From an uncultured Trueperaceae bacterium (lineage in GTDB: Bacteria > Deinococcota > Deinococci > Deinococcales > Trueperaceae), in assembly GCA_937873495.1 (NCBI GenBank), contig CALMXZ010000003.1:62001-126000 (forward strand): DNA of 64,000 nt, read 5' to 3'. Positions 19,636 through 27,484 of the stretch are shown piece by piece; positions within the stretch are counted from its first letter, which is position 1; the number at the start of each line of letters is the position of its first letter. The position numbers were made by a program, and so were the translations under genes. The notes beneath the pieces were generated by a model, which worked only from the letters and a program-made list of their open reading frames with translations, was not told the DNA's origin and ran no database searches.

Positions 19636-20373
19636 TCAGCGCCCCCAGACGAGCCCGGCGACCCAGTAGAACAGCACCACCAGGGGCAGCGCGGGCAGCA
19701 TCGACGCGACCCTGAGCCGTTTGATGTCGAGTAGACCGAGCCCGAGCGCGACGATCATGAGCCCGCCGACGCCGTTGACGAGCAGCACGCGCGGGTCGGC
19801 GGCCGGGTCGGGTATGAGGCTCGAGAACGCTCCGGCCGCCAGCGACAGGCCGCCTTGGTAGACGAGCACGACGATGGCAGAGGCGAGCACGCCGAAGCCG
19901 AAGCTGGCGGCCAGCGCGAGCGCCGAGAAGCCGTCGAGCGCCGACTTGAGGACAAGGAAACCGGCCTCTCCAGATAGACCGTTCTGGATACTTCCGAGGA
20001 GCGTCAACGGACCAACGCAGAAGAGAAGCGAGGCCGCGACGAACCCTTCCGTGAACCGGCCCCGGCCCTTCAGGCGCGCTTTGAGCAGCGTGCCGAGCCG
20101 CTCCAGCCCGGCCTCAATGCGCCACCACTCGCCGATGGCGGCCCCGATGGCGAGGGCCATGAGCCCGACGATGACGCCGGGCGGCTCACCGACCTTGGCC
20201 AGGTCGAAGGCGTTCGCGATCCCGATGTACACCGTCACGAGGCCGATGGCCTGCATGACGGCCTCGGTGATCCTCGACGGCAGCTTGCCGCTCACCGCCA
20301 GACCGACGGCGGCTCCACCTACGACCGTGGCCACGTTCAGCCACGTGCCCCATGTCTGGTCGAAGAAGCTCAC
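19636..20373 (-). CDS. DUF554 family membrane protein
   Basis: This 245-residue integral membrane protein belongs to DUF554 (YdfK/YqgA-like), a family of unknown function. Six or seven hydrophobic helices are visible; the hallmark segments are GTWLNVATVVGGAAVGL at the N-terminus, FVAASLLFCVGPLTLLGSIQNGLSG in the middle and LLVNGVGGLMIVALGLGLL near the end. The start is GTG at 20373 in a 4-nt GTGA overlap with the upstream gene's stop. It is the last gene of a tightly overlapping minus-strand group. Confidence 0.85.
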   Translation of the reverse strand: MSFFDQTWGTWLNVATVVGGAAVGLAVSGKLPSRITEAVMQAIGLVTVYIGIANAFDLAKVGEPPGVIVGLMALAIGAAIGEWWRIEAGLERLGTLLKARLKGRGRFTEGFVAASLLFCVGPLTLLGSIQNGLSGEAGFLVLKSALDGFSALALAASFGFGVLASAIVVLVYQGGLSLAAGAFSSLIPDPAADPRVLLVNGVGGLMIVALGLGLLDIKRLRVASMLPALPLVVLFYWVAGLVWGR

Positions 20374-21011
20374 GCGGCCTCGCCCTCGGGCGGGGTGCGC
20401 CGCAACACGAGCACCGTGACGCCGATACCAACGACGAGGGGGATCCCCACCAGCCAGATCAGCCAGGTCGACAGCGAGCGGGGGGCGACGGGCGTCGGCG
20501 GCAACACGAACGGGACCACGCCGTTGGCCGCTCCGCCGACCTCGAGCGGCACGTTCGCGATCGCCTCCTCGTTCATGAACGTGGTGTCGCGCACGCTGAG
20601 CGTGTACCTGCCGGTGGCCGGGGCCCTGAGTGTGCCGCGGTAGCTCCCCTCGTCGGCGCCCTCGGCGAACTGACCGGAAGCCTCGTCCGGAAGGGTGGCG
20701 AGGAACTCGCTCGCCTCCGCGCCGACCACGCTCTCGGGCACCGTGGGGCCGCCGCCGTCGAGCGCGCGCAGTTCGACCCTCACCCTGGCCTTCTCCACGG
20801 GGGTGAGGAGCGTGTCCTCGAGGGATAGATCGATCTGCAGCGGCTCGCCTGCCACGGGCGGGTCGGGTGTGACGCTGAGCTTCCCGATGACGAGCGTGGC
20901 GTGGGCGTCGGCCGGTTGCCACATGAGGAGCGCGCCGCAGGCCAGGGCCGCCAGGCGCGCGGCGGCACGGCCGCGCTTGGGTGCGGCGCGCACCCAGTGC
21001 TCAGCGCGCAT
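20370..21011 (-). CDS. Secreted, membrane-anchored YtkA/FixH-like protein
   Basis: This 213-residue protein has a Sec-type signal (hydrophobic stretch ending PADAHA, about residues 21-38), an extracellular beta-sandwich region (LVIGKLSVTPDPPVAGEPLQIDLSLED; GSYRGTLRAPATGRYTLSVRD), and a single C-terminal transmembrane helix (about 184-205) with a short basic tail. The pattern of beta repeats resembles YtkA-like/FixH domains, known for association with copper and respiratory-oxidase assembly; the assignment is tentative. It overlaps the vanY stop by 11 nt and the DUF554 start by 4 nt. Confidence 0.7.
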   Translation of the reverse strand: MRAEHWVRAAPKRGRAAARLAALACGALLMWQPADAHATLVIGKLSVTPDPPVAGEPLQIDLSLEDTLLTPVEKARVRVELRALDGGGPTVPESVVGAEASEFLATLPDEASGQFAEGADEGSYRGTLRAPATGRYTLSVRDTTFMNEEAIANVPLEVGGAANGVVPFVLPPTPVAPRSLSTWLIWLVGIPLVVGIGVTVLVLRRTPPEGEAA

Positions 21012-21984
21012 CGGCGGCCAACCGGTCTAGCAGGTACTCGCGCAGGGTGAGGCCGGACGCACGGACGTCAGCGGCCACCTCGCGCCCGACGTAGCGGTAG
21101 TGCCAAGGCTCGTACATGTAGCAGGTGATGCCTTCCTTGCCAAGCGGGTAGCTCATGACGAAGCCGTAGCGCCAGGCGTTCTCGGCGGCCCAGGTGCCCT
21201 CCGGCGTGGTCGCCCAGTCGTCGAGGTCCCAGGCTTCCGGCCCGTCGAGGCTGCGCAGGTCGATGGCGGTGCCGAGTTGGTGTTCCGAATGGCCGGCCCT
21301 GGCGCTCGAACGCAGCGCCTGGTCGTAACCGTCCTCCTTCACCCAGTAGGCGAAGGTGGACTCCTGGTAGGCGAAGGAGCGGTAAGCCGATTGGATGGCG
21401 AGCTCCACGCCGGCCGCGGCCGCCGCGCTCAGGAGCGCGCGCAGGTCGGGCAGGACCACGGCCCTGAGCTGCATACCCCCCGGCGCCGCACCGGGCGCGA
21501 CGTCCGCCAAGGCCGCGGCCAGCTCCACCAGGTCGTCCGGCGCGTAGTCACTCGCCAGCCTGAAGCGCGTGTCGAGGATCGTGTACGGCCACTGGTCGCT
21601 GGTACCGAGCGGAGCGGGGTCGTCGGCGTAGGTGCAGGCTGCCTGCTCCTGCGAGACGGCGTGCTGCGCGCCGACCGGCGCGGCGGCGGACCCGGCGGTC
21701 GGCTCCTCCGGCTCGGACGAGCCGAGGTCGACAGGCGCTCCCGACAGGTCGGAGTCGGGCTCCCGCGCGCCGGCGCCGCTAGCGCCGGCCGGCGGCGCTG
21801 CGGTGCTCGCGGCGCCGGCCGGTCGGCCGTCCGCTGCGCCGGAGGCCACCGCCGTCCAGACGACGATGAGGGCGAGTGCCGCCAGCGCACCGAGCGCGCG
21901 CAAGGCGCGGCGGCGGTTGGACGCTCGGTGCGCCGCCACGCTCTTGGCAGTCGCGCCGCGGTGCCTGTCCCTCGGCGCGTTCAC
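21001..21984 (-). CDS. vanY: D-alanyl-D-alanine carboxypeptidase, VanY/M15B family
   Basis: This 327-residue zinc peptidase trims the terminal D-Ala of peptidoglycan stem peptides. After a basic N-terminus and one transmembrane or signal helix (about 33-50) comes a Ala/Pro/Gly-rich linker, then the M15B catalytic domain with SAYRSF, the zinc site SEHQLGTAIDL and EPWHYRYVG. The start is GTG at 21984, in a GTGA overlap with the stop of the polyferredoxin gene. Presence inside a redox-protein operon is odd. Confidence 0.88.
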   Translation of the reverse strand: MNAPRDRHRGATAKSVAAHRASNRRRALRALGALAALALIVVWTAVASGAADGRPAGAASTAAPPAGASGAGAREPDSDLSGAPVDLGSSEPEEPTAGSAAAPVGAQHAVSQEQAACTYADDPAPLGTSDQWPYTILDTRFRLASDYAPDDLVELAAALADVAPGAAPGGMQLRAVVLPDLRALLSAAAAAGVELAIQSAYRSFAYQESTFAYWVKEDGYDQALRSSARAGHSEHQLGTAIDLRSLDGPEAWDLDDWATTPEGTWAAENAWRYGFVMSYPLGKEGITCYMYEPWHYRYVGREVAADVRASGLTLREYLLDRLAADAR

Positions 21985-23561
21985 GGCAACGGTCCTGCGA
22001 GGGTGCCACGCATCTCCATCGGCTGCGCCAGGATGACGAGCTGCAGGGCCAGGAAGCCGAGGACGTAGACGGTCAGCGGCCACATGGCGAGCACGCCTCG
22101 CCGCAGGCCGAAGTCGCGGACGCCGATGCGCACGGCCGTCGCCAGGCCGAGGCCGGCGTAGACGGCGCCGAGCACTGCCTGGATGGGGAAGAGCCATCTG
22201 GTGGGAACGACCTGCGCGAGGCGCCAGTGGGGGTCGAGCGGGAAGCCGCGGTACTCGAAGAAGTGCTCGAACACAGGCACCACGCTAAGCGCGCCGGTCA
22301 AGAAATGGAAGACGTAGTGCGCCCCCCAGAAGCCGAAGCCGAGCGCGACCGTGACGTAGCCCCAACGCCGGAACGCCGCGAGGGGCGAGGAACGCTTCCC
22401 GCCCAAGCGGTCCGCCGACCAGGCCACCGCGACCGTGGCGAGCAGGCCGACGGTCGTCACGGCAAGGTAGGCGAGGGCGAGGATGAGCACCTCGCTGCGC
22501 GTGCCGAGCAGTTCGGAGAGCCGCCCGGTGAAGGCGAAGAAGGGGGAGGTCATGGCCAGCGCGTTCACCACGCCCCAGAACGTGAGCAGCACGCCGAGCG
22601 CCAAGGCGCTCGCGCCGAACCGCCTGCGCCACGGGTCCTTGCTCAACTCGCGCCCCGGCGCCCTGACGCTCAACGCCACGTTGTCGTACGGGCACGCGCG
22701 CACGCAGTTGAAGCACAGGGTGCAGTCGAGATTGGAGGTGATGGCGGGCACGAGGAGATCGCTCTCGCAGCCGGGGAAGTAGCCGCTGCCGTTCGGGTTC
22801 ACGATCTCGCTCATAGGGATGAACGCCGTGCGCTCGGGCGCCGCCCTGACGGCGGACGTGTCGGCGGTGGCAGGCGCCACCATACCAGGGCCGCTGACGC
22901 GGCCGTGCAGGCACGGCTTGTGGACACACCGACGGCAGACGTCCGGATCGACCGCCACGATCTGCGTGGGCGACGCGGCGCTGAGCGCGAAGTTGAAGTT
23001 GCCCAACGGGCAGACGTAGCGGCAGAACGTGCCGGCGGGGAAGAGCGTGTCGACGACGAGCGCCGACCCGAAGTAGCCGACGACCAGCCAGGCCGTGAGC
23101 CACGGGCTCGCCCACAGGTCGAACGCTTCGTAGGCGATGAAGTAGGCCAGCGTGATGCCGAGCACCAGCCACTTGTTGCGCAGGCTGCGGGGGAACCGGA
23201 GGTCGGCCCGAAGGAGCCTCTTCAAGCGGCGCGACGCCCCGCGCGTGAGCATGAGCGGGCAGGCCGCGCAGAAGGCGTTGCCGAAGAGCGCGAGCGCGAG
23301 GACGACGAGGCCCCGGTAGTGCAGCCACGTCGCGGTGGTGGCCACGTTGCGGGGCGCCAACTGGCGCCCGGTCAGCCCGTCGACGATCACGAACAGGGCC
23401 AGGACCAGGAGGGGGAGCTGCAGCGCTAACCTGGCGTACTTCCAGCGGACGAACCGGCGTACCAAGGGCAGCCTGAAGAGGTCGAAGCCACGCGGCTGGT
23501 CGACGTACGGCCCGCCGGCGCGCGGCAGCTCGACGGCGCCGGACCGGCGCGCGGGCGTCAT
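21981..23561 (-). CDS. Membrane polyferredoxin (NosR/NapH/CcoG-like)
   Basis: This 526-residue integral membrane protein carries several Cys motifs typical of NosR/NapH/CcoG proteins: C98-x-x-C101-P and C180-x-x-x-C184-P at membrane edges, C209/C212/C217, and a ferredoxin-type cluster C280-x2-C283-x2-C286-x3-C290-P. About ten helices flank them, including five after the ferredoxin domain. Such proteins pass electrons across or along the membrane, for example to nitrous-oxide reductase maturation or copper handling; the partner here is unknown. Its 5' end overlaps the FixH-like gene (ATGA) and its 3' end overlaps vanY (GTGA). Confidence 0.85.
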   Translation of the reverse strand: MTPARRSGAVELPRAGGPYVDQPRGFDLFRLPLVRRFVRWKYARLALQLPLLVLALFVIVDGLTGRQLAPRNVATTATWLHYRGLVVLALALFGNAFCAACPLMLTRGASRRLKRLLRADLRFPRSLRNKWLVLGITLAYFIAYEAFDLWASPWLTAWLVVGYFGSALVVDTLFPAGTFCRYVCPLGNFNFALSAASPTQIVAVDPDVCRRCVHKPCLHGRVSGPGMVAPATADTSAVRAAPERTAFIPMSEIVNPNGSGYFPGCESDLLVPAITSNLDCTLCFNCVRACPYDNVALSVRAPGRELSKDPWRRRFGASALALGVLLTFWGVVNALAMTSPFFAFTGRLSELLGTRSEVLILALAYLAVTTVGLLATVAVAWSADRLGGKRSSPLAAFRRWGYVTVALGFGFWGAHYVFHFLTGALSVVPVFEHFFEYRGFPLDPHWRLAQVVPTRWLFPIQAVLGAVYAGLGLATAVRIGVRDFGLRRGVLAMWPLTVYVLGFLALQLVILAQPMEMRGTLAGPLP

Positions 23562-24004
23562 CGCGCCCGGACGGTGGTGAGGAGCTCGCCTGCGGCCCGC
23601 TGGCCGCTCGTGGTGGTCACCTTCACGCTCAAGATCCAGTCGCCCGCCATGCCAAGGACCAGGTCGTCGACCCGGTACGTGCCGCCGCCGACCTCCGTCG
23701 CCGTCGCCGTGGCCGGCGCCATGCCGGCGTGCGTCATGTCGCCCTCCACCTCGACCTTCGCGCCAAGCACCGGGGCGCCGCCCTCCGACACCTCGATCAC
23801 GACGGGCACGAGGCCGGCGCGCGCCTCGTCGGCAAGCCGGGCCGTGACCGTGATGGCGTTACTCGCGGCTCCGTCGCCGGACGGCTTGCAGGCTGCCAGC
23901 GCCAGCACCGCGCCGAGCAGCACCAGCGCCGCGGCCAGCCGGGGCGGGGTGCGAACGGTGCGGCTGGGCGGGGCTGCCTGACTAACGGAGCGCGCGGCGA
24001 TCAT
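23558..24004 (-). CDS. FixH/YtkA-like lipoprotein
   Basis: This 148-residue protein has a hydrophobic segment ending in the lipobox LAAC (about residues 34-39), so it should be a lipoprotein. The mature part is one beta-sandwich domain with the FixH/YtkA pattern (LVPVVIEVSEGGAPVLGAKVEVEGDMTHAGM, then YRVDDLVLGMAGDWILSVKV). The HAGM segment after GDMT resembles the Met/His-containing turn of copper-related members, so a metal role is possible but unproven. It is the first overlapping gene of the redox group and follows the amidase stop by 13 nt. Confidence 0.75.
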   Translation of the reverse strand: MIAARSVSQAAPPSRTVRTPPRLAAALVLLGAVLALAACKPSGDGAASNAITVTARLADEARAGLVPVVIEVSEGGAPVLGAKVEVEGDMTHAGMAPATATATEVGGGTYRVDDLVLGMAGDWILSVKVTTTSGQRAAGELLTTVRAR

Positions 24005-24017
24005 CTACGCCGGCAGG

Positions 24018-24941
24018 CTACCACTTGTCAGGGACGCGCCCCACGCTGGCCAGATACCTAGCGATACCGTCTTCAAGGGCGGCAGCCAGCGCGTCAGGCG
24101 TCTCCAGGAGCCGGCGGTCGGCGGGGTTGGAGAGGTAGCCGAGCTCGACGAGCAGGGCGGGCGTGCCGCGGTCGACGGCGTGCTCGAAGCGGCGGTCGTT
24201 GAAGGCGTAGTACTCGAACATGTTGCCTGACACGTTGGCGTCGTCATCGCTCATGCGTGTGGCCTTGAGGACCGCCCGGTCGATCTGCAGCTTCAGCTGC
24301 ACCTCGCGCGGGCTGCGCGCCGGCCAGAAGTGGGCGCTCTTGTAGCCGGAGCGGGAAGTGTCTGGATTGGAGTCGATGTGCACGGAGATCACGAGATCGG
24401 CCCGGTAGCGGGGCGGGACGGTGGCCGGCAGCACGTCGACGACGGCGCCGCGGGCGCGAAGCCTGGCGGCAAGTGCGTCGACGATGGCCGCGTTGACGCT
24501 AACCTCGTCGAGGCCGGCGTAGTGGCCGCCAGTGCTGTAGCGCAAGGAGGCGAGCTCCTCCGGCTGGGAGCCCGCGTCGAGGTGGCCTACCTGGAGGCCC
24601 ACCCTGACCGGGCCGGCGATGCGGTTGGCCAGCCACCGCACGGGTCCGGCGCGGTAGACGCGCACCTCTCCCGCTCCCGGCAACGCCTGGGCTACGCGCC
24701 GGAGGCCGTCCGTCACGATGCCGAAGGTGGCGGCGGCGAACTCGCCGCCGCGCTCGCGCACCGCCGTAGCCACGTTGACCGTGAGGAGGAGGGCCATGGC
24801 CACCAGGAAACCGCGGCCGAGCAGCTTGCGCCTACGGAGCAGCCCGGGAGGCCGCTCGGCGGCCTCCGGCGGCTCGTCGACCGGCCGCGCCGTGCGCGGC
24901 GGTCGGGAAGCCAGTGGGTCGCGCCGCTCCTCGCCGGTCAC
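24018..24941 (-). CDS. N-acetylmuramoyl-L-alanine amidase (Amidase_3)
   Basis: This 307-residue cell-wall hydrolase cleaves the amide between muramic acid and the stem peptide. A basic/proline-rich cytoplasmic start is followed by one membrane anchor (about 43-62). The zinc enzyme core shows VGLQVGHLDAG (His), VSVHIDSNPDTS (His) and ALLVELGYLSNPADRRLL (catalytic Glu). The start is GTG at 24941, with TAGCAT 6 nt upstream (leaderless). It may head the minus-strand operon that runs to DUF554. Confidence 0.88.
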   Translation of the reverse strand: MTGEERRDPLASRPPRTARPVDEPPEAAERPPGLLRRRKLLGRGFLVAMALLLTVNVATAVRERGGEFAAATFGIVTDGLRRVAQALPGAGEVRVYRAGPVRWLANRIAGPVRVGLQVGHLDAGSQPEELASLRYSTGGHYAGLDEVSVNAAIVDALAARLRARGAVVDVLPATVPPRYRADLVISVHIDSNPDTSRSGYKSAHFWPARSPREVQLKLQIDRAVLKATRMSDDDANVSGNMFEYYAFNDRRFEHAVDRGTPALLVELGYLSNPADRRLLETPDALAAALEDGIARYLASVGRVPDKW

Positions 24942-24977: not shown

Positions 24978-25631
24978 TCATAACCGCACTGCCTCGAGCC
25001 AGTAGATGATGTGCTCGTTGACGTTCTCGAGGTGGTCGCCGAGGCGCTCGAGGTACCGGGCGATCGCGGACAGTTCGGTCGCGCGTCCGATGGTACCCGT
25101 GTCGGCGAGCATGTAGGTCAGGAGCTCGCGCTGGATCTGGTCGTACAGGTCGTCGATCTCGGAGTCGAGGGCGTGGGCGCGCCGCGCCGCCTCCGCGTCG
25201 GCTTCCGCCACCGCCTTGGTCGTCGTGTCGAGCATGACGAACAGGACCTCGAAGATGCGCTGCATGTCGAGGTACTTCTTGATGGGCGGCTGCTTGGCGA
25301 GCTGGTGGCCGGCCTCCGCGACGTGCTCGGCGTAGTCGCCCGCGCGTTCGATGTCGGCCAGCATCTGCAGGGCTGCGCCGAGGAAGCGCAGGTCGCGCGC
25401 GGCGGGCTGCCGGCGGGCGATCACGGTGAGGATCCGCACCTCGAGGTCGGACTGGATGGCGTCCACCAGGTCGTCGAGCTCCGCACAGCGCTGCGCGCCG
25501 TCCGGGTCGGCGTCGATGAGCGAGCGCCGTGCCCACTCGCAGCTCTCCCTCACGAGGCTGAGCATGCGGACGAGGTCGCCCGTGATGGTCTGCAGGTCCG
25601 ACTCGAGCGGTGTCAACGACGAGGTCGCCAT
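24978..25631 (-). CDS. phoU: Phosphate signalling protein PhoU
   Basis: This 217-residue helical protein has the two-repeat PhoU architecture, each repeat a three-helix bundle with metal-ligand patterns (repeat 1 VDAIQSDLEVRILTVIARRQPAARDLRFL; repeat 2 EIDDLYDQIQRELLTYM and LERLGDHLENVNEHIIYW). PhoU links the Pst phosphate transporter to the PhoR kinase; the pst genes are not in the window, but a PhoB/PhoR-like pair is encoded divergently 138 nt away. TACGCT lies 9 nt before the ATG. Confidence 0.93.
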   Translation of the reverse strand: MATSSLTPLESDLQTITGDLVRMLSLVRESCEWARRSLIDADPDGAQRCAELDDLVDAIQSDLEVRILTVIARRQPAARDLRFLGAALQMLADIERAGDYAEHVAEAGHQLAKQPPIKKYLDMQRIFEVLFVMLDTTTKAVAEADAEAARRAHALDSEIDDLYDQIQRELLTYMLADTGTIGRATELSAIARYLERLGDHLENVNEHIIYWLEAVRL

Positions 25632-25640
25632 GTGGCCAGT

Positions 25641-25646
25641 AGCGTA
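25641..25646 (-). promoter_or_regulatory. -10 element TACGCT of phoU
   Basis: TACGCT on the minus strand ends 9 nt before the phoU ATG, predicting an almost leaderless transcript. The response-regulator promoter lies about 110 nt away on the other strand. Confidence 0.5.
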
Positions 25647-25756
25647 GCGCGACCGGGTCAGGGCGATGTCAGGGCGGCCGCCGGCAGACGAGTTCCGTGG
25701 GTGCGGCCGGCGCCGTCCGGGCGCCCCCGGGAGACGAGACCATGACAGAGCGCCCG

Positions 25757-25762
25757 TAGAAT
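25757..25762 (+). promoter_or_regulatory. -10 element TAGAAT (leaderless) of the response regulator
   Basis: TAGAAT, five of six matches to TATAAT, ends 6 nt before the ATG at 25769. Confidence 0.65.
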
Positions 25763-25768
25763 GACCGC

Positions 25769-26461
25769 ATGGCCGCGCATACGGTCCTGGTGGTCGAAGA
25801 CGACGACGCGGTGCGTGAGGTGGTCGCGTTCCATCTCGGTCGGGCCGGCTTCGCCGTTCGCGAGGCGTCCGACGCCGCTCAGGCGCTGGCCGCCGCGCCG
25901 GACGCCTCCCTGGTCGTGCTCGACTGGATGCTGCCGGACGAGAGCGGGCTCACCGTCCTGAAACGGCTACGCGACTCGCCGGCCCGCGAACTCCCCGTGC
26001 TCATGCTCACCGCCCGCGCCCGCGAGGCCGAGCGCATCGAGGGGCTCGAGTCGGGCGCCGACGACTACCTGACCAAGCCGTTCTCCGCCGCGGAGCTGGT
26101 GGCGCGCGTGCGCGCACTGCTGCGTCGCGCCGTTCCCCGCAAGCAGGTGAGCGTCGGCCGGCTGACCGTCGACGCCGACGCGGGCGAAGCGACGTGGCGC
26201 GGCGAACCGTGTAGGCTCACGCCGCGCGAGTTCAGCCTGCTCGCCTTCCTGGCCGCCAACCCCGGACGCGTGTACTCGCGCTTCGAGCTCCTCGACAAGG
26301 TCTGGGGCGAAGGGTTCGTCGGCACGGAGCGGACCGTCGACCAGCACGTCGCCCAGCTCCGCGCCGCCGTGACCGGCGACGTCGTCGCCACGGTGCGAGG
26401 TCGGGGCTATCGCCTCGGCGAGTGCCGAGGCGAGCAGCTACCCGACCAAGCGGAGCGGTAG
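25769..26461 (+). CDS. OmpR/PhoB-family response regulator
   Basis: This 230-residue DNA-binding regulator has a receiver domain with acidic pocket E10-D11-D12, phospho-acceptor D52 in LDWMLPDESG, and the conserved Lys in YLTKPFSAAELVARV. A winged-helix domain follows (LTPREFSLLAFLAANPGRVYSRFELLDKVWG; TVDQHVAQLRAAV; VRGRGYRL), typical of PhoB. The stop codon is immediately followed by the kinase start, and phoU lies divergently upstream, so a role in phosphate response is the best guess. Confidence 0.93.
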   Translation: MAAHTVLVVEDDDAVREVVAFHLGRAGFAVREASDAAQALAAAPDASLVVLDWMLPDESGLTVLKRLRDSPARELPVLMLTARAREAERIEGLESGADDYLTKPFSAAELVARVRALLRRAVPRKQVSVGRLTVDADAGEATWRGEPCRLTPREFSLLAFLAANPGRVYSRFELLDKVWGEGFVGTERTVDQHVAQLRAAVTGDVVATVRGRGYRLGECRGEQLPDQAER

Positions 26462-27484
26462 GTGGACCATGACGTTCCGGTGCCGCAGGCGCCGCCGTGG
26501 TGGGACGTCCTGAAGGAAGGCGTCGTCCTGCTCGGCGGTGAGAGCGTGCTCGACCTCAACCTGGCGGCGGCCCGGCTCCTCGACGTCGACCAGGACCGCG
26601 CGCGCGGAGCGGCCGCCATCGGCGTGCTCCGCGATCACCGCCTGGAGGCCATGTGGCGCTCGGGGGTGGGCGGCGAGATCGAACTGCGTTCCAGGTCCGT
26701 CAGGGTGACCGTGTTCCCCGGCGGGCTGGTCTTCGAGGACGTGAGCGAGCTCCGCCTCGGGCGGCGCGACGCGTCGGAGCTGCTCTCCGTGCTCTCGCAC
26801 GAGCTGCGTACCCCCGTGACGACCATCCGCGGGGCGCTCGAGGCGCTCGATCCAACGGCCGCGGACGGCGGCGACCCGGGCGCGGCGCGCTTCCGCGAGC
26901 GCTTCCTCGCGCTCGCCCTCGCGGAGGCCGAGCGCCTCTCGCGCCTGCTCGACGACCTGACCGTCCAGTCGCGCCCACCCAGGGAGAGGAGCGTCGAGCT
27001 CGGGGTCGTCGTCGACAAGGCCGCGGCGTTGCTGCGGGAGCGGGCGGACGCCGCCGGCGTGCGGTTCACCGTCGACCTCGAGGACCTCGTCGTCTGGGCG
27101 GACGAGGACAAGCTCCTCCAGGTGATCCTGAACCTCATGGAGAACGCGGTCGTGCATGGTCCGGTGGGCGGAACGGTCGCGGTCGCGGCATGGCGCGCGG
27201 ACGGCGCGGCCCGGCTCGAGGTGCGCGACGCCGGCGCGCCGCTCGATCCCAGCGGGGTACCGGCGCTGTTCGCGCCGCACACGCAGGGCCGGCACCGCGG
27301 CCAGGGCGCCGGCCTGGGGCTCTACATCGTCAGGTCGATCGTGCAGCGCTGGGGCGGCGCCGTCTGGGGTGGACCGCGCGGCGCCGGATCGGGCGGCACC
27401 GAGCAGCCAGAAGGCGCCGTGCCAGGCGGCGCCGCGTCAGGCAACGCGTTCGGGTTCAGTGTGCCGCTCGCCAACCGCGCCTGA
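26462..27484 (+). CDS. Soluble sensor histidine kinase (PhoR-like)
   Basis: This 340-residue kinase has no transmembrane segment. Residues 10-95 resemble a small PAS-like domain; the HisKA helix carries the phospho-acceptor H113 in LSVLSHELRTPVTTIRG; the ATPase domain has the N box (NLMENAVVHG), a degenerate G1 box (VRDAGAPLDP instead of DNGxG) and the G2 box (GQGAGLGLYIV). A Gly/Ala-rich loop interrupts the end of the domain before GFSVPLA. The start is GTG, directly abutting the regulator stop, so the pair is translated together. Confidence 0.88.
   Translation: MDHDVPVPQAPPWWDVLKEGVVLLGGESVLDLNLAAARLLDVDQDRARGAAAIGVLRDHRLEAMWRSGVGGEIELRSRSVRVTVFPGGLVFEDVSELRLGRRDASELLSVLSHELRTPVTTIRGALEALDPTAADGGDPGAARFRERFLALALAEAERLSRLLDDLTVQSRPPRERSVELGVVVDKAAALLRERADAAGVRFTVDLEDLVVWADEDKLLQVILNLMENAVVHGPVGGTVAVAAWRADGAARLEVRDAGAPLDPSGVPALFAPHTQGRHRGQGAGLGLYIVRSIVQRWGGAVWGGPRGAGSGGTEQPEGAVPGGAASGNAFGFSVPLANRA

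Follow-up and report, generated by a model that had tools for sequence, protein, structure and literature searches.

Three genes in a run of five on the minus strand of a 64,000-nucleotide stretch of DNA from an uncultured Trueperaceae bacterium (contig CALMXZ010000003.1, positions 62,001 to 126,000; this whole stretch, C3:62001-126000 of the genome coded G000, is referred to as the window) probably form, on balance, a copper-site assembly module for respiratory cuproenzymes. They encode a lipoprotein of the YtkA/CtaK family (YtkA1, positions 23558..24004), a membrane polyferredoxin of 526 amino acids (polyFd, 21981..23561) and a membrane-anchored immunoglobulin (Ig)-like protein (FixH2, 20370..21011), and the proposed targets are oxidases of the caa3/ba3 type, plus cbb3-type oxidase or NosZ where these are present. 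Gene structure, co-distribution in a comparison set of 111 Deinococcota genomes, linkage to SCO1, CopC, CopD and cox genes, invariance of the candidate ligands, and homology to CrdA and CtaK are the basis of this reading, which was preferred because it fits all the linkages. From these data we infer copper binding, reductase activity, the direction of electron flow and the membrane topology of the module. A first-pass annotation of the window had suggested an uncharacterised envelope redox system tied to copper-oxidase assembly, and the linkage, homology and co-distribution data agree with that suggestion.

Gene structure, distribution and linkage of the core genes

The five genes were initially described as overlapping by 4-11 nucleotides (nt), and this was borne out by reading of the minus strand and by Pfam searches. 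In the order YtkA1, polyFd, VanY, FixH2 and DUF554, the overlaps are of 4 (ATGA), 4 (GTGA), 11 and 4 nt (GTGA), and the arrangement is not due to chance, since the gene order is kept in relatives. YtkA1 was assigned through its match to Pfam YtkA (E=9e-14) and its lipobox, LAAC, while polyFd gave only sub-threshold Pfam ferredoxin matches and the window copy of FixH2 had no Pfam match at all, its assignment being based on invariant residues and on an AlphaFold2 (AF2) model.

In the comparison set, polyFd was present in 52 genomes. FixH2, searched by profile, was found in 54, including all those with polyFd, and the two genomes having FixH2 without polyFd correspond to one incomplete genome and one marginal match. 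YtkA1 was also present in 54 genomes, among them 49 of the 52 with polyFd. This co-distribution holds even where the genes are unlinked, as happens in several genomes. When the neighbourhoods of 51 polyFd loci were tallied, FixH2 was located on the same strand at 1.2 kb or less in 41, and YtkA1 lay within 2.5 kb upstream in 33. When YtkA1 was sought apart from polyFd, most of its unlinked copies proved to adjoin unrelated housekeeping genes, so that linkage is not universal. The sole genome of the set without COX1 (G013) also lacks the three genes.

The five-gene order extends through the family to which the window belongs (f1, whose named relatives are Trueperaceae). Outside it, gene order across Deinococcota is kept only for the three-gene core, as YtkA1-polyFd-FixH2, or FixH2-YtkA1-polyFd in family f3; none of the genes for VanY, DUF554, amidase or phoU was near polyFd in the 17 genomes concerned. 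Therefore phoU, amidase, VanY, DUF554 and gatC are a family-specific setting around a wider core. A natural loss points in the same direction: G099, a 100% complete genome, keeps phoU, amidase, YtkA1, VanY, DUF554 and gatC in order (locus L194), and polyFd and FixH2 were found neither at this locus nor elsewhere in the genome. Its YtkA1 has lost the two ligand motifs described below (GDMTHAGM is replaced by GRLAASNT, and MAGDW by QAGDW). Thus, the copper-like site of the lipoprotein was lost jointly with polyFd and FixH2, and peptidase and DUF554 were left untouched. Neither nosZ nor COX1 requires polyFd, since G099 still has the former and three copies of the latter.

The additional genes that some relatives have beside polyFd include, as confirmed with Pfam, those for CopC, CopD, MbnP, CCP_MauG (MbnH-like) and DUF2946. 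In 6 genomes, which represent 5 genera, the distance between CopD and polyFd is within around 4 kb. In G001, polyFd and FixH2 lead into ctaA-, ctaB- and coxB-like genes, COX1 and SCO1; in G083, DsbA- and DsbB-like genes come after FixH2, and where genus g1 has a second FixH2 copy, this shares a gene run with SCO1 and a DsbA-like protein. A contig scan with polyFd gave high-identity matches only in Deinococcota, together with distant delta-proteobacterial polyferredoxins in unrelated neighbourhoods. By profile search alone, orthologues of full or near full length (37-41% identity) surfaced in 13 of 298 genomes of Gemmatimonadota (the phylum of a Gemmatimonas record). In all 13, SCO1/SenC is directly upstream of polyFd on the same strand, and in 12 of them YtkA1 lies between both, with an overlap of 4 nt between successive genes in locus L222; an Ig-like protein is usually encoded downstream. 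SCO1-SenC and YtkA were confirmed by Pfam in the Gemmatimonadota loci scanned.

The three core proteins and their known relatives

YtkA1 clearly belongs to YtkA (PF13115; 52.3 bits, against a gathering score of 25.9) and has a lipoprotein anchor. Its lipobox Cys39 and the motifs M90-T-H92-x-G-M95 and M119-x-G-D-W are invariant in 24 sequences, and these Met and His residues make up a candidate Cu(I) site. The only credible matches of its profile in the PDB were the copper/silver structures of CrdA (E=9e-8), one of which is a silver complex, and the Met motifs of both proteins are aligned. CrdA of Helicobacter pylori is a resistance determinant without His (PMC9182242), in contrast with YtkA1, which is a lipoprotein carrying MTHxGM and MxGDW. 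A second likeness is to CtaK, a YtkA lipoprotein of Bacillus subtilis that, together with Sco, has been implicated in assembling the CuA site of caa3 oxidase (PMC13344008). YtkA1 is likewise an envelope lipoprotein with a YtkA domain, and the domains joined in YcnJ, namely CopC, CopD and YtkA (PMC13344008), recur as partners around polyFd; unlike CtaK, it is operonic with a polyferredoxin.

According to the AF2 helices, polyFd consists of about 4 transmembrane segments, a cytosolic dicluster domain with 8 Cys, about 5 further segments containing H415xxxH419, and a C-terminal QPM(E/Q)xRG motif. Twelve Cys residues, H415, H419, M515, R518 and G519 are invariant in 23 Deinococcota members. The 12 Cys and both His are also invariant across the two phyla, as are P514, M515, R518 and G519 wherever the end of the protein is present. 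If the AF2 helices are combined with the positive-inside rule, the cluster domain and the N-terminus would be cytosolic, H415 and H419 would lie within a membrane helix, in its outer half, and the QPM(E/Q)xRG end would be external.

The first-pass annotation had called this protein CcoG-like, which may apply to its probable role and does not apply to its family. CcoG (also RdxA/FixG) is a membrane protein with two tetranuclear iron-sulfur clusters whose gene is found in an oxidase-assembly context, and for which a function in Cu(I) supply has been proposed (PMC7558416). polyFd is also a membrane protein, predicted to hold two tetranuclear iron-sulfur clusters, and is encoded among oxidase-assembly genes. 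However, CcoG ends in an Ig domain, whereas polyFd has a C-terminal membrane part with HxxxH and QPM(E/Q)xRG, and it is encoded with YtkA and SCO1 instead of ccoHIS; at the window locus it is flanked by genes other than those of cbb3 oxidase (ccoGHIS). No protein above the cut-off of the CcoG model (TIGR02745) was detected in the 111 Deinococcota genomes, the window polyFd gave no match, and only one of the 23 Deinococcota members was weakly matched (E=0.0075). With the NapH/MauN model (TIGR02163), about 130 residues, comprising CxxCP, CxxxCP and the first ferredoxin cysteines, are matched in all 23 members, but this match is partial (39.9 bits for polyFd, with a cut-off of 213), the protein is twice as long, and no nap genes were seen nearby. 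The score against NosR (NF046105) was 14.5 bits, the cut-off being 1000. Assignment of polyFd to CcoG, NapH or NosR was consequently rejected, all scores being below the curated cut-offs.

In FixH2, cleavage of the signal peptide would leave His37 as the likely mature N-terminus, an A/G-H pair being present at the predicted cleavage point. H37, Y124, D142 and E148 are invariant in 34 Deinococcota sequences, among which no second conserved His was found; Pfam YtkA matches 14 of them. The AF2 model, with a confidence score (pLDDT) of 84, is an Ig-like beta-sandwich followed by one C-terminal transmembrane helix. In histidine braces, the second ligand is His in CopC, and Glu plus Trp in YcnI. FixH2 resembles the latter in having an N-terminal His after cleavage, a conserved acidic residue, a beta-sandwich and a C-terminal membrane anchor. 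Nevertheless, YcnI is a DUF1775 protein that binds Cu(II) through a monohistidine brace (PMC8424229), and FixH2 is of the YtkA/FixH type and has no conserved Trp; its site is a candidate copper site.

No description of a gene set formed by YtkA1, polyFd and FixH2 was found in the literature searched. The ingredients are of known kinds (a NapH-like membrane ferredoxin, CtaK, Sco and CopC/D), and it is their combination that is apparently undescribed. The same seems true of a polyferredoxin family that is linked to SCO1 and CtaK and in which HxxxH and a Met motif at the C-terminus are invariant.

Proposed copper route and alternative explanations

Oxidases have to receive their copper in the form of Cu(I). 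In the mechanism that we propose, FixH2, anchored through its C-terminal helix, would bind Cu(II) through its N-terminal His, Asp142 and Glu148. Electrons from quinol or from the cytosolic side would enter polyFd via its two [4Fe-4S] clusters and cross the membrane to reach an HxxxH/Met site facing outwards, where they would reduce Cu(II) to Cu(I), or else the thiols of Sco and CuA. YtkA1 would then accept Cu(I) at its Met-His-Met-Met site and hand it to the oxidase, together with Sco where this is present. polyFd would thereby fill the role that CcoG has elsewhere; given the absence of CcoG from the 111 genomes, it may occupy its place. A more specific version, to which we give somewhat less than even chances, is that polyFd represents a separate family of transmembrane cupric reductases that constitutes, with a CtaK-type Cu(I) lipoprotein and a Cu(II) protein with an N-terminal His, a complete reduce-and-deliver route serving respiratory copper sites in Deinococcota and Gemmatimonadota. 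If true, this route would answer how some bacteria devoid of CcoG reduce copper for oxidase assembly. A CcoG homologue is likewise absent from Firmicutes (PMC13344008). In any case, the module is a concrete and testable candidate for Cu(I) supply in both phyla, for which defined residues and a naturally occurring loss are available.

The targets available in the window genome were also analyzed. The initial observation that no oxidase or nos gene is present is correct for the window but not for the genome, since a caa3-type oxidase, a ba3-like oxidase, a NorB-like protein, nosZ and three SCO1-family proteins are encoded on other contigs. The three proteins with a CuA motif are subunit II of the caa3-type oxidase, subunit II of the ba3-like oxidase, and NosZ; FixO was not found in this genome.

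Several results weigh against a role of the module in copper-site assembly. In the window genome it is unlinked to oxidase genes, and most Deinococcota without it still carry haem-copper oxidases, which indicates that it is not essential for copper insertion and that other routes exist. The third protein of the Gemmatimonadota loci starts with Asn or Asp after the signal peptide; a Cu(II) site based on His is therefore not general, the N-terminal His being a feature of Deinococcota. As for structural support, the AF2 model of polyFd is of low confidence in the cluster domain, comparison of its sequence and model with the PDB gave no usable match, and FixH2 is matched only weakly to CrdA and PmoD by Foldseek. 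Finally, the copper chemistry attributed to the module is deduced from genes.

A different function for polyFd, which we regard as rather unlikely, would be that of a thiol reductant keeping the cysteines of Sco and CuA reduced during CuA assembly, in a TlpA/CcdA-like manner and fed by iron-sulfur clusters. The position of SCO1 directly upstream of polyFd in Gemmatimonadota, the proximity of FixH2 to DsbA/DsbB or DsbA/SCO1, and the invariant CxxCP and CxxxCP membrane cysteines, which could be redox thiols, are all consistent with such a function. The invariant HxxxH and C-terminal Met motif, on the other hand, point to a metal. The cbb3-type oxidase has no CuA, and in four f3 genomes the only COX1 match pairs with FixO (cbb3) and there is little or no SCO1, yet polyFd and FixH2 are present. 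Three genomes of this family that carry polyFd and FixH2 (G005, G006 and G008) have no SCO1 match and a single COX1 match, together with FixO; this favours a cupric reductase over a pure thiol reductase.

It seems improbable that the module serves envelope copper resistance or buffering instead of delivery to enzymes. Proteins of the CopC, CopD and CrdA types are also known from copper resistance, as the H. pylori determinant mentioned above exemplifies, but the neighbouring SCO1, DsbA and cox-operon genes function in assembly, CtaK acts as an assembly factor in B. subtilis, and the only genome without COX1 is devoid of the module. There is very little probability that polyFd donates electrons to nitrous oxide reductase or matures it, or that it partners cbb3 alone in the manner of CcoG: it does occur in 13 of 14 genomes with nosZ, including that of the window, and in 10 of 12 with cbb3, but 33 of the 52 polyFd genomes have neither, only 13 of the 52 have nosZ (which in the window genome is on a separate contig), G099 has nosZ without polyFd, and the protein falls outside the NosR and CcoG families. 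Co-occurrence with cbb3 or nosZ, or a CcoG identity, thus fails as a general explanation, contradicted by the distribution, while a role of polyFd in copper loading of NosZ, among other targets, is possible. The first-pass annotation's idea of an envelope redox system in which VanY, the peptidoglycan peptidase, is integral and works alongside DUF554 can hardly be sustained, for despite the overlaps and order kept in f1, and the permanence of VanY-FixH2 in G096 and of FixH2-DUF554 in G108, both genes are near polyFd only in this family, both persist in G099 without polyFd and FixH2, and a number of g15 genomes have no VanY in the cluster.

Surrounding genes and additional loci

VanY (21001..21984, with a GTG start at 21984) is a D,D-carboxypeptidase by Pfam (E=3e-36; PF02557, 124.7 bits with a cut-off of 25), and its sequences SEHQLGTAID and EPWH fit the SxHxxGxAxD and WH motifs. 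DUF554 is a membrane protein (19636..20373, GTG start, E=6e-69). Upstream of YtkA1, after a gap of 13 nt, lies the gene for an Amidase_3 N-acetylmuramoyl-L-alanine amidase (24018..24941, minus strand, E=1e-11), preceded at 36 nt by phoU (24978..25631, minus strand; TIGR02135 above cut-off), the first gene of the conserved run. Both keep their positions in relatives. With such short distances, the transcription unit probably begins upstream of YtkA1, the amidase likely being co-transcribed. phoU is divergent from phoB/phoR-like genes (25769-27484), and this phosphate-regulon link (24978-27484) is kept across the family, which could suggest phosphate control of the genes downstream of phoU.

With respect to other copper-related genes, MbnP and MbnH are known mainly from methanobactin operons; in G108, a pair of MbnP and MbnH-like (CCP_MauG) genes, with CopC and CopD, directly adjoins polyFd (L043:2788-5118). 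Several relatives encode, between YtkA1 and polyFd, a small and possibly metal-binding secreted protein whose His motif is GHxHPEGTPPHxH-like (L043:9307-9621, L046:8445-8750, L047:11063-11389). G084 has a second YtkA1-like lipoprotein, apart from polyFd, whose neighbours are a His-rich secreted protein and a CopC-like protein (L195:6089-7964). One of the second FixH2 copies belongs to a FixH2-DsbA-SCO1 run (L176:6403-8514) that adjoins a heavy-metal P-type ATPase; copies of this type were detected in four relatives of the genus and not in the window genome.

In five Gemmatimonadota loci (L221, L222, L224, L226 and L228), a three-gene ATP-binding cassette (ABC) importer with a substrate-binding protein of Zn/Mn type is divergent from the SCO1-YtkA-polyFd run, and a metal-responsive operator may lie in the control region that they share. 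The polyferredoxins of more distant Gemmatimonadota relatives (L233 and L234) have no HxxxH and were set aside. Together with that of L207, these distant polyferredoxins adjoin a lipoprotein with a PCYCGC motif (L207:6206-9387, L233:5210-7666, L234:6740-9913), and a DUF411-like protein is also encoded beside them in L207 and L234; the three loci could possibly represent a third related copper system.

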